Below are positions 50,507 to 54,702 of a DNA stretch of 64,000 bases, piece after piece. Numbering within the stretch: position 1 is the stretch's first letter; each line of letters begins with the position of its first letter. Origin of the DNA: Candidatus Cryptobacteroides choladohippi (GTDB lineage Bacteria; Bacteroidota; Bacteroidia; Bacteroidales; UBA932); assembly GCA_018065985.1 (NCBI GenBank), contig JAGHSF010000059.1, forward strand, positions 1 through 64,000, given 5' to 3'. Below the pieces are notes generated by a model. That model was not told the origin of the DNA. It searched no databases and was given only the letters and a program-made list of their open reading frames with translations. The translations under genes were made by a program, and so were the position numbers.

Positions 50507-53500
50507 ATGAAAAAATCATCCTTTCTTGTTGCCCTGACTGCTGCAGTAGCCGTATCTGCAACTGTCATCACCGCCCTGGCCGTTGCCGGGGAGGGCGGAC
50601 GCGTTCAGATGCGTCCCGAGGGACCATGCGACATCTATGCAGCGGGCGGCACGCCCTGCACGGCGGCCCATTCGACCACCAGGGCGCTGTATGCAAACTA
50701 CGACGGGCCTCTCTATCAGGTGATGCGTCAGTCAGACAAGAAGACTCTCGACATAGGCGTCGTGCAGCCTTCTGCCAAAGATGCCGGCGGATATGCCGAC
50801 GCAGCAGCCCAGGACGAGTTCTGCAAGGACACATACTGCTGGGTGACAATAATCTACGATCAGTCAGGCACCGGCAATGACCTCCATCAGGCGCCTCGCG
50901 GAGGCTTCAGCGGAAATGCCCAGGGCGGCTTCAACAACGTTCCCGTTGCAGACTGGGCTCCCATCACCTTGATGGGCCACAAAGTCTACGGACTGTTCAT
51001 CAACCAGGGTATGGGAATGCGCCGGAACGACACCAGAGGCACGGCCGTCGACGACCTCGCGGAAGGTCAGTACTGGGTGTTCAACGGCCAGCATTTCAAC
51101 GACGGATGCTGCTTCGACTACGGCAATGCCGAGACGGACAGCCGCGATGACGGCGACGGTACCATGGAGACCACCTACTACGGCGTGTCCCGCGGATGGT
51201 ACTACGGACACGGCCAGGGTCCCTGGGTGATGACCGATCAGGAGAACAACCTCGTCGGCTGCGTGAACGAAGACCCGAACGACAAATACTGTCCCACCCT
51301 GAAGAGCCAGACGGCCCGCTTCATCACTGCGATGGCCGACGGCGAGCCCCATCACTGGAGGTCGATGAGCGGTGATGCACAGAAAGGCGAGCTCGAGATT
51401 CTCTATGACGGCTGCCGCGTGAAGAATCCCCGCAGCAGCTACGACCCCATGCGCAAGCAGGGCGCCATCCTTCTTGGCAACGGCGGCGACAACTCCTACT
51501 GGTCAGCAGGAACCTTCTACGAGGGTGCCATGACCAAGGCCGGCACCTTCCCTTCAGTCGAGACCAACCAGGCCGTGCAGGCAAATGTCGTTGCGGCGGG
51601 CTATGACGTCCAGCGTCTTGCAATATCCGCAAGCGACAAGGTGGGCTATCCCAACGGACTGCAGACCTTCACCCCGAAGACAAGCCGAAGCACCTCAGTG
51701 GTGTTCGTGAACACTACGGGCGCGCCCATCGATGACCTCGAACTCAGTATCGCTGCGCCTAGGGGCTGGAAGGCTGTCGTTGCAGGCACCAGGGAGAAGA
51801 GCCGCAAGATAGGCTACACCGTGAAGCCCGGCCAGACCGTGGTCGCCGCGTTCAATGTCACATCATCGAGGAAGCTCTTCAACGGCGACCTTGTCGCAAA
51901 GGCAAGCTGGACCTCAGAGTCGGGCAAGTGCCACGAGACAGCGGTCGAGAAGGTGCGCAACGTGGCTCCCATAAAGATCAACGAGTTCAAGACCAACGGT
52001 TCCGACGCGTTCATCGAGCTTTACAACGCCGGCATGAAGACAGTCGACATCTCGAAGTGGACCATCAAGTCCCACTCCATCCACATGCCGGTCGTGTCGG
52101 CCATCAACATCCCTGCAGGCACGAAGCTCGGCCCTGGCGAGTTCTATCTGCTCGGCCTTGCCACTTCAGGACTTTCCGTCGATGCGGCAGCAGGTGACGA
52201 CATCATCTACGTCAGGTCGGTCGAGGGCATCTCGGAGGGCGACGAAATCCTCATCGGCTCCGAGACCAGGAAGGTTGCAGGCATAGTGAAGCCTGAGGTT
52301 GAGCCGCAGGTTCCCGGCTGGGAGGCTATTCCCCAGGGCATTCCTGCCGGCACGACAACCGTATGGCAGCCGCTCCCGGACGGACCGGTGATCACGGTCC
52401 CTGCAGGATCCACCAACATCCCCGTGCAGCTTGTTCAGGGTTTCAAGCCCGGCGACAAGATGGCTCTCGGCTATGGCACGACATATCCTCCCACCACGAA
52501 CGATGTGGTAAAATATGAGGTGGTTACGGTAACGGAAGTCGGTTCCCAGGGCAACCAGTCATGGCTCTCTGCCGACGCAAAGCCTGGCGACACCAACATC
52601 AAGGTGCAGTCGGTTGACGGCATCTACCCCGGCGCCCGTATCCGTCTCGATATCGACAGCGAAGGCCATGGAATAGAGACCGTTACAGTCAAGTCTGTCG
52701 GCACCCCCAGCGAATTCCATCCCAGCTGGGACATGTTCGACCCGAACGCCGATGCCGGCACCGGAGTGGAGCTTGAGGAGCCCCTCAAGTTCTTCCATGC
52801 CCGCAATATCCCTTTCAGCACACGCGGAAGCGGCATCAGCTTCGAGCCTGCCACCAGATTCGACCATTCTTCAAACGAGCCCGTCGTCGCCCTGATCCAC
52901 GCGATCAGGCTTGACAGGCCTCTCGCAAAGGCTCATCCCATCGACGAGGCTGTATATGACGCCAGCGCCGAGGGTGTGGGATATCAGGGAGATGTTGCTC
53001 CCGACCAGTACTACGGTGGCCCTCAGCTGTCACTGCAGCGCGGCAACATGACCCTCCGCGACAACAAGGGCAACATAGTCGATGCAGTCAACTACGGCGT
53101 TGTTGTGGATCCCTGGCTTTCAGAGGGTTATCATGCAGAGTCCGGCAACGGGAAGTATGGCAGCCACGCTCCTTCTCCCGACGACGACCAGATCAGTGCA
53201 GGACGCTTCCCCGACGGAGCCGACTCCGACGACAACAAGATGGACTTTGCCCTGCAGCATGGCACCGCACTGTTCGAGGATGCTCCCGCCGGAGCACTCG
53301 ATATAGTGGTTTACAAGGCTGACGGCCTCCGCATCGGAGATACCTTCCACCTCGGTTTTGGAAAGAATGCAGAGGCTGTGCGCGCCGGACTCTACAACGG
53401 AACCAGGACAGTCACCAGAATGGAGTCCCGCTGGGGCCGCATGGTTCCGGTCGAGCATGAGGTGATGGACATCACTCTGCTGTCTCCTCTTGCCTCAGAC

Positions 53501-53563
53501 CACAAGGCCGGTACAACCATCACGACCAACGTTCCCACTCCCGGACGTCCCAACCGTTACTAG
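50507..53563 (+). CDS. GH54-type alpha-L-arabinofuranosidase with NEW3-like and lamin-tail-like domains
   Basis: 1018 aa; GPCDIYAAGGTPCTAAHSTTRALYANYDGPLYQVMR, TIIYDQSGTGNDLHQAP, DGCCFDYGNAE; lamin-tail-like IKINEFKTNGSDAFIELYN. Confidence 0.88.
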   Translation: MKKSSFLVALTAAVAVSATVITALAVAGEGGRVQMRPEGPCDIYAAGGTPCTAAHSTTRALYANYDGPLYQVMRQSDKKTLDIGVVQPSAKDAGGYADAAAQDEFCKDTYCWVTIIYDQSGTGNDLHQAPRGGFSGNAQGGFNNVPVADWAPITLMGHKVYGLFINQGMGMRRNDTRGTAVDDLAEGQYWVFNGQHFNDGCCFDYGNAETDSRDDGDGTMETTYYGVSRGWYYGHGQGPWVMTDQENNLVGCVNEDPNDKYCPTLKSQTARFITAMADGEPHHWRSMSGDAQKGELEILYDGCRVKNPRSSYDPMRKQGAILLGNGGDNSYWSAGTFYEGAMTKAGTFPSVETNQAVQANVVAAGYDVQRLAISASDKVGYPNGLQTFTPKTSRSTSVVFVNTTGAPIDDLELSIAAPRGWKAVVAGTREKSRKIGYTVKPGQTVVAAFNVTSSRKLFNGDLVAKASWTSESGKCHETAVEKVRNVAPIKINEFKTNGSDAFIELYNAGMKTVDISKWTIKSHSIHMPVVSAINIPAGTKLGPGEFYLLGLATSGLSVDAAAGDDIIYVRSVEGISEGDEILIGSETRKVAGIVKPEVEPQVPGWEAIPQGIPAGTTTVWQPLPDGPVITVPAGSTNIPVQLVQGFKPGDKMALGYGTTYPPTTNDVVKYEVVTVTEVGSQGNQSWLSADAKPGDTNIKVQSVDGIYPGARIRLDIDSEGHGIETVTVKSVGTPSEFHPSWDMFDPNADAGTGVELEEPLKFFHARNIPFSTRGSGISFEPATRFDHSSNEPVVALIHAIRLDRPLAKAHPIDEAVYDASAEGVGYQGDVAPDQYYGGPQLSLQRGNMTLRDNKGNIVDAVNYGVVVDPWLSEGYHAESGNGKYGSHAPSPDDDQISAGRFPDGADSDDNKMDFALQHGTALFEDAPAGALDIVVYKADGLRIGDTFHLGFGKNAEAVRAGLYNGTRTVTRMESRWGRMVPVEHEVMDITLLSPLASDHKAGTTITTNVPTPGRPNRY

Positions 53564-53565
53564 GA

Positions 53566-54702
53566 GTGGCCCCGAGGCATAATCGGATGATAGACAGGGT
53601 GGCGGTGCTTTTCAGTGCCGCCGCCCTTGTCCTGTCTGTCATACTGTGCATTCACGCGCTGAGCGGCCACGGGCTGATCGGCTGTTCTGCCGGTACCAGC
53701 TGCAACGAGGTCCTGGGCAGCCGCTGGTCCTATCTTTTCGGCCTGATCCCGGTCAGCGGCCTTGCGGTGGTCTGCTACGTGGCAATGACTCTTTGCCTGC
53801 TCTTCAGACGCGGTTTCGAGGCCGATGAGCAGTTCTTCAGGTGGCTCGACAGGGTGACGCTTGTGCTCGCCGGTGCCATAGCCGGGTCTGCCATCTGGTT
53901 CATCTGGCTGCAGAAGAACATGATACGCTCGTTCTGTCCTTACTGCATGACGGCGCATGTCTGCGGCCTGATCCTGCTGTGCCTGCTGCTTGCCGGTTCG
54001 CGTCAGAAGTTCATTGCCCGCATCCTTTGCTCTCTTGCCGGCATCGCCCTCGCAGGCTGTCTGGCGGGAGTGCAGCTCTCCACGACACCGCGCACGGCGT
54101 ATGAACGCGGCTTCATTCCCGAGGCCCTGCCCGTTCCCCCGTATGAGGAGATGCCCCTGATCGGCAGCCCGCAGGCTGAAGACGTTGTGACGCTCATGTT
54201 CGACTACCGCTGCTCCCACTGCCGGAAGATCCACTCCCTGCTCGGGGAAGTGGCGGGGCTGCTTGACGGCAAGGTCGCCTTTTCCGTTGTCCCTGTGCCC
54301 CTTGGAAAGGACTGCAACCCCTATGTGCCTGCCGGAGAGGACAGGTTCAAGGGGTCCTGCGAACTCACAAGGTATGCCCTTGCCCTCTGGCGCTGCGACA
54401 GGGATGCCTACGCCGGATTCGACGCATGGCTGTTCGAGGACCGTCCGGGAGGCTGGTATCCCCGCGAACCCGGTGAGGCCTTTGACAAGGCTTGTGCCCT
54501 GGTTGGCAGGGAAAACCTTGTCCGGGCCCTTTCTGATCCGTGGATTTCCCGGTACATGGCTGATGTGTGCGAGCTTTTCGGCCGCACCTCGACTCAGGGG
54601 AAAGGCGCGGTTCCCAGATTCATACATGGCGACAGATGGCTGGTGCCTGACGTCGATGACGCCTCCGGGCTGAGTGAGTTGGTCCGAGAGTTGCTGCAGT
54701 AG
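53566..54702 (+). CDS. VKOR-thioredoxin (DsbA-like) fusion, disulfide-forming protein
   Basis: GTG start or ATG at 53587; VKOR TM domain with CPYC, C-terminal thioredoxin fold with DYRCSHCRK. Confidence 0.9.
   Translation: MAPRHNRMIDRVAVLFSAAALVLSVILCIHALSGHGLIGCSAGTSCNEVLGSRWSYLFGLIPVSGLAVVCYVAMTLCLLFRRGFEADEQFFRWLDRVTLVLAGAIAGSAIWFIWLQKNMIRSFCPYCMTAHVCGLILLCLLLAGSRQKFIARILCSLAGIALAGCLAGVQLSTTPRTAYERGFIPEALPVPPYEEMPLIGSPQAEDVVTLMFDYRCSHCRKIHSLLGEVAGLLDGKVAFSVVPVPLGKDCNPYVPAGEDRFKGSCELTRYALALWRCDRDAYAGFDAWLFEDRPGGWYPREPGEAFDKACALVGRENLVRALSDPWISRYMADVCELFGRTSTQGKGAVPRFIHGDRWLVPDVDDASGLSELVRELLQ

Follow-up and report, generated by a model that had tools for sequence, protein, structure and literature searches.

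DsbL/DsbI has been described as an oxidase dedicated to its client, arylsulfate sulfotransferase (ASST) (PMC3526765; PMC12453122), with which it shares one tricistronic operon (PMC3526765). In E. coli dsb mutants, complementation by a clostridial VKOR-DsbA fusion has been reported (PMC12453122), and no linkage of this fusion to a client is mentioned in the passages of that paper that treat it. Here we describe a gene pair from Candidatus Cryptobacteroides choladohippi (Bacteroidales), located on a 64,000-nucleotide stretch of contig JAGHSF010000059.1 (hereafter the window). The first gene (positions 50507-53563) is, as judged from its sequence, that of an exported GH54 enzyme, a predicted arabinofuranosidase, and the second encodes a VKOR-DsbA fusion. 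We consider it quite likely that the fusion works as a disulfide oxidase dedicated to one client, the adjoining GH54 enzyme: it lies beside its candidate client in an operon-like order that is conserved across species.

As in the DsbL/DsbI-ASST system of uropathogenic E. coli and Salmonella, the putative oxidase of the window is encoded beside a specific exported client. DsbL/DsbI consists of a DsbB-type membrane partner and a separate DsbA-type protein, whereas the window has a single VKOR-DsbA fusion; the client is a sulfotransferase in the former and a glycosidase in the latter. Moreover, the hosts of DsbL/DsbI also possess a general Dsb system, which the window genus seemingly does not. 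No homology to DsbL/DsbI was found, the membrane part being VKOR rather than DsbB. The window module would most likely work like DsbL/DsbI-ASST without being a member of that system, built as it is from unrelated genes.

The second gene has a VKOR domain (PF07884; E value 1.3e-15, 58 bits against a cut-off of 27.5) with the loop cysteine pair and membrane CxxC motif of this family. Pfam assigned its C-terminal part to a Thioredoxin_4/DsbA-like domain whose CxxC motif is CSHC, the combination that defines VKOR-DsbA fusions. The predicted structure, with a predicted local distance difference test score (pLDDT) of 88, matches those of ScsC, BdbD and DsbA in addition to Synechococcus VKOR, and all four cysteine pairs are conserved in alignments (Table 1). 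The preliminary description of this DNA, which had read the gene as a VKOR membrane domain plus a DsbA-like CSHC domain, is thus borne out by PF07884, Thioredoxin_4 and the model. It had also placed the gene 2 bp after the GH54 stop codon, a distance that holds with a GTG start at 53566 (+ strand). The likelier start is the ATG at 53587, giving a gap of 23 bp, as a 98%-identical database protein (P0121) starts with MIDRV at this position.

The window fusion has the same domain order as the clostridial VKOR-DsbA fusion. With the Synechococcus VKOR-thioredoxin fusion (PDB 3kp9, 4nv2, 4nv5 and 4nv6) it shares the VKOR bundle, the loop cysteine pair, the CxxC motif and a thioredoxin-fold partner, but in the window this partner is DsbA/ScsC-like, with the CSHC motif and a second invariant cysteine pair. 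In addition, the two fusions show weak sequence similarity (E value of about 1e-5), and that of the window is tied to one client.

The GH54 gene matches profile PF09206 at residues 40-366 with an E value of 2.7e-117 and 391.8 bits (cut-off 25), covering positions 1-314 of the 315 in the profile, which assigns it to family GH54 over the full profile length. Its nearest solved structures are those of AkAbfB from Aspergillus kawachii (PDB 1wd3, 1wd4 and 6sxt), with 170 of 315 residues (54%) identical in the catalytic domain. The nucleophile E246 and acid/base D328 align with E221 and D297 of AkAbfB, in the active-site and disulfide numbering of the 1wd3/1wd4 work; this Glu and Asp are invariant in all 67 aligned GH54 sequences, AkAbfB included. 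The two enzymes thus share the catalytic domain, nucleophile, acid/base and the positions of three disulfides, one of them vicinal. Unlike AkAbfB, the window enzyme has NEW3 and lamin tail domains and a fourth cysteine pair; Pfam found in it no C-terminal CBM42 as in the AkAbfB-type architecture. Moreover, the window enzyme is made in bacteria and AkAbfB in the fungal endoplasmic reticulum. In a database relative of the long type defined below (P0030), an AhpF-like thioredoxin domain with a CTMC motif takes the place of the C-terminus; this protein could be a genuine fusion or stem from a chimeric contig.

The three AkAbfB disulfides noted earlier, including the vicinal pair, are all represented in the window enzyme, with six cysteines on exactly matching positions. 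In AkAbfB, the vicinal disulfide C176-C177 contacts the bound arabinofuranose in 1wd4 (PMC12102755). The weight originally placed on these three pairs shifts, in that the VKOR gene instead tracks a long GH54 type with a fourth pair, C252-C262. All eight cysteines are invariant in the 35 full-length long-type sequences, where every remaining cysteine column is variable. C252 and C262 are jointly present in every long type, and jointly missing from AkAbfB and all short types, in which the C106-C111 pair is often lost and the vicinal pair kept. Because the predicted structure of the window GH54 enzyme is unusable (pLDDT of 30; thin alignment of close relatives), bonding between C252 and C262 rests on their co-conservation. 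The window enzyme probably depends on four disulfide bonds, of which one lies in the sugar-binding site.

Searches for GH54 and VKOR-DsbA in 300 genomes of the Cryptobacteroides-like genus, with gene maps of relatives drawn by a codon-based gene caller and tblastn, revealed GH54 above the cut-off in 37 genomes and the fusion in 32. The GH54 enzymes fall into a long type, 73-85% identical to that of the window, and a short type (50-54%). Of the 33 genomes with a long type, 32 also carry the fusion, the sole other one (G015) having a contig that ends inside its GH54 gene; conversely, all 32 fusion-bearing genomes have a long-type GH54, and none has the fusion without GH54. The hypergeometric probability of this co-occurrence is 2.6e-42, a value that ignores kinship. 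In most genomes VKOR directly follows the long GH54 gene, mostly after 3-10 bp; in G210 and G264:C40 a truncated GH54 gene precedes it, of which the contig retains the 3′ end but not the 5′ part, and several genomes show the order long GH54, VKOR, short GH54. The VKOR proteins of different species of the genus are only about 35-55% identical to that of the window, and the linkage is therefore old or has been repeatedly kept. Long-type enzymes, with their four pairs, show this linkage most strictly; in loci L199 and L153, a short-like GH54 gene directly adjoins VKOR.

The linkage extends beyond the genus. A VKOR-first scan of 85,488 species, with one genome each, yielded 69 loci with a VKOR/DsbA match, 53 of which have an adjoining GH54 catalytic domain (52 upstream on the same strand, one downstream). 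Three of the others retain a contig-cut GH54 3′ part, four start at a contig end, four lie among carboxylesterases and five are without GH54; of these five, L211, L212 and L214 are distant and L208 has no VKOR domain. The GH54-linked loci include five from Planctomycetota (L190, L195, L198, L202 and L203), six from Verrucomicrobiota (L196, L200, L201, L205, L207 and L210), one from Lentisphaerae (Lentisphaerota; L209) and one from the isolate Parabacteroides sp. PFB2-10 (L199), where VKOR lies directly upstream of GH54. VKOR and GH54 are thus neighbours within the genus and in at least four phyla, which answers the neighbour test proposed in the preliminary description. GH54-first sampling in the class to which L200 belongs (132 genomes) added one GH54 gene (Verrucomicrobiota G787), with VKOR just downstream, and in that of L202 (150 genomes) it returned the L202 locus alone. 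No full-length GH54 was found in 347 other Bacteroidota genomes; partial matches in five other Bacteroidota genomes were short stretches inside large open reading frames (ORFs) and were rejected. Chance adjacency was rejected in view of the recurrence across phyla, and a binning artefact in view of the presence of the pair on single contigs, including the 5.96 Mb G787:C1 and the L199 isolate genome.

Between phyla, the GH54 enzymes are 70-80% identical and the VKOR proteins 36-48%. In the GH54 tree, whose deep forks are moderately supported, the Bacteroidota long types nest among planctomycete rows, as transfer of the pair between phyla would produce. Such a joint transfer of both genes, in either direction, is probable; the labels of metagenome-assembled genomes may err.

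The fusion could alternatively be a general envelope oxidase that merely happens to lie in the GH54 operon. VKOR-DsbA proteins elsewhere do serve as general oxidases, a Verrucomicrobiota bin (RA.bin74) has four VKOR matches, and VKOR occurs in 42 of 199 sampled Bacteroidota genomes, in separate lineages unlinked to GH54, if the short, poorly extracted row L219, which falls elsewhere, is disregarded. Hence the caveat in the preliminary description, that VKOR might be a widespread and unlinked general oxidase, holds for Bacteroidota at large, but not for the genus, where the fusion always accompanies GH54. A general oxidase would be expected in most genomes of the genus, whereas only 32 of 300 carry the fusion, each together with the long-type GH54; furthermore, the adjacency recurs across phyla despite divergent VKORs. 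We regard this alternative as improbable. The genus itself seems to have no general Dsb pathway, with one weak DsbB match among 200 genomes and DsbA-like Thioredoxin_4 proteins outside the fusion in 2 of 151 genomes. Weak VKOR matches in G016, G199 and G081 were rejected as peptidase-C39-like VKOR proteins by sequence reading. Two genomes of the genus encode peptidase-C39-like VKOR-thioredoxin proteins unlinked to GH54 (L025 9485-10966 and L117 5562-6938), which are probably of the peptide-export type.

Several observations weigh against a strict dedication of the fusion to GH54. Genomes G104, G180 and G339 have only a short-type GH54, which keeps the vicinal CC, and no VKOR of the GH54-linked kind was detected in them; G104, which is 95% complete, retains all six canonical cysteines. 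Because such genomes keep the vicinal CC, GH54 in general may do without the fusion. In the subclade of G109, G189, G271 and G128:C47, VKOR lies among type-B carboxylesterases and GH54 is located elsewhere. In addition, the patterns used in the VKOR-first scan were derived from VKORs close to that of the window.

This subclade also bears on the idea that the module serves several exported enzymes of the locus, chiefly type-B carboxylesterases and short-type GH54, the long GH54 being only one client. The COesterase genes that flank its VKOR encode recurring cysteines, related esterases follow a second GH54, and the order with a short GH54 behind VKOR would fit as well. Nevertheless, GH54 alone is common to nearly all VKOR loci, those of other phyla included, and esterase neighbours are missing from most mapped loci, which leaves this idea slightly less probable again than a general oxidase. 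The client range of the family may still be wider in places, because this side branch sits among type-B carboxylesterases with recurring cysteines. That the fusion is a reductase, isomerase or redox sensor keeping the vicinal pair reduced or shuffled is very hard to credit, as VKOR domains that combine the loop pair and CxxC with a fused DsbA-like domain are known as oxidases and the model is similar to Synechococcus VKOR and to folds of the DsbA family.

We therefore return to the fusion as an oxidase dedicated to the adjoining GH54 enzyme. Its mechanism is proposed because of the established VKOR-DsbA chemistry and the conservation of all pairs involved. After export of GH54, the CSHC motif of the DsbA-like domain would oxidise its cysteine pairs, among them the vicinal C201-C202, which gives the arabinose site its shape. 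From CSHC, electrons would then pass to the VKOR loop pair C33/C39, on to the CPYC pair and finally to quinone; menaquinone is the expected quinone in Bacteroidota. With the two genes co-inherited, recipients without a Dsb system could still fold GH54. The earlier proposal that a private oxidative folding catalyst travels with the glycosidase is supported by the neighbour test and the distribution in the genus, and we infer that the fusion oxidises GH54. On balance, we lean towards GH54 and its private VKOR-DsbA forming a portable module that moves between phyla and would give Dsb-less anaerobes disulfide formation, with VKOR evolving much faster.

Table 1. Features of the GH54 and VKOR-DsbA genes in the window.
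Feature	Position	Strand	Remarks
GH54 arabinofuranosidase (predicted), 1018 amino acids	50507..53563	+	Signal peptide, GH54 catalytic domain, NEW3, lamin-tail-domain region; Pfam and PDB relatives
GH54 catalytic domain	50624..51604	+	PF09206; nucleophile E246 and acid/base D328 conserved
Cys pair 1, C41-C51 (AkAbfB C21-C31)	50627..50659	+	Alignment to 6sxt
Cys pair 2, C106-C111 (AkAbfB C81-C86)	50822..50839	+	Alignment to 6sxt
Cys pair 3, vicinal C201-C202 (AkAbfB C176-C177)	51107..51112	+	Alignment to 6sxt
Cys pair 4, C252-C262	51260..51292	+	Long-type GH54 only; no counterpart in AkAbfB or short type
NEW3/NPCBM-associated domain (PF10633)	51692..51892	+	Score slightly under Pfam cut-off
Lamin tail domain, start	51962..52201	+	Pfam; TPGxPN end motif at protein C-terminus (sequence)
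VKOR-DsbA fusion, 371 amino acids	53587..54702	+	ATG start; alternative GTG start 53566
VKOR loop cysteines C33/C39, shuttle pair	53683..53703	+	Invariant in alignments
VKOR membrane CPYC (C117/C120), quinone-proximal pair	53935..53946	+	Invariant in alignments
DsbA-like active site CSHC (C209/C212)	54211..54222	+	Invariant in alignments; fold matches
DsbA-like domain, second invariant Cys pair C243/C258	54313..54360	+	Alignments

Further genes and gene arrangements were noted in the window and at related loci. In loci L082, L092, L103 and L086, a GH54-type VKOR is flanked by type-B carboxylesterases with no adjoining GH54; in the genomes of the carboxylesterase-flanked loci, related esterases follow a second GH54 copy elsewhere. 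Locus L083 encodes a SASA-type esterase fused to an alpha-L-arabinofuranosidase (ASD1_dom; 10922-13975), and a protein equal to it in length and number of cysteines is found repeatedly between GH54 genes of the long and short types; the same locus has a GDSL lipase/esterase fused to an alpha-amylase domain (16421-18931), adjoining GH54. In the window, single ORFs encode a short-chain dehydrogenase fused to a GNAT acetyltransferase (55258-56556) and a GH92 alpha-mannosidase with a weakly GH99-like C-terminal stretch (59609-63004; PF16317, E value 0.005). The ORF at 57594-59633 has two GH43-like stretches, its second half being also weakly GH130-like. NCBIfam and PHROGs searches gave no useful match.

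In the papers searched, whether on VKOR and polysaccharide utilization or on VKOR and glycoside hydrolases, a link between GH54 and VKOR was not reported. A disulfide-rich enzyme may cross phyla with its own folding catalyst, which would make foldase dependence visible as a barrier to gene transfer. The pair offers a natural VKOR-client system for studying substrate selection by DsbA-like proteins and the formation of vicinal disulfides in anaerobes and, as a practical hint, the production of bacterial GH54 enzymes may call for co-expression of the fusion.

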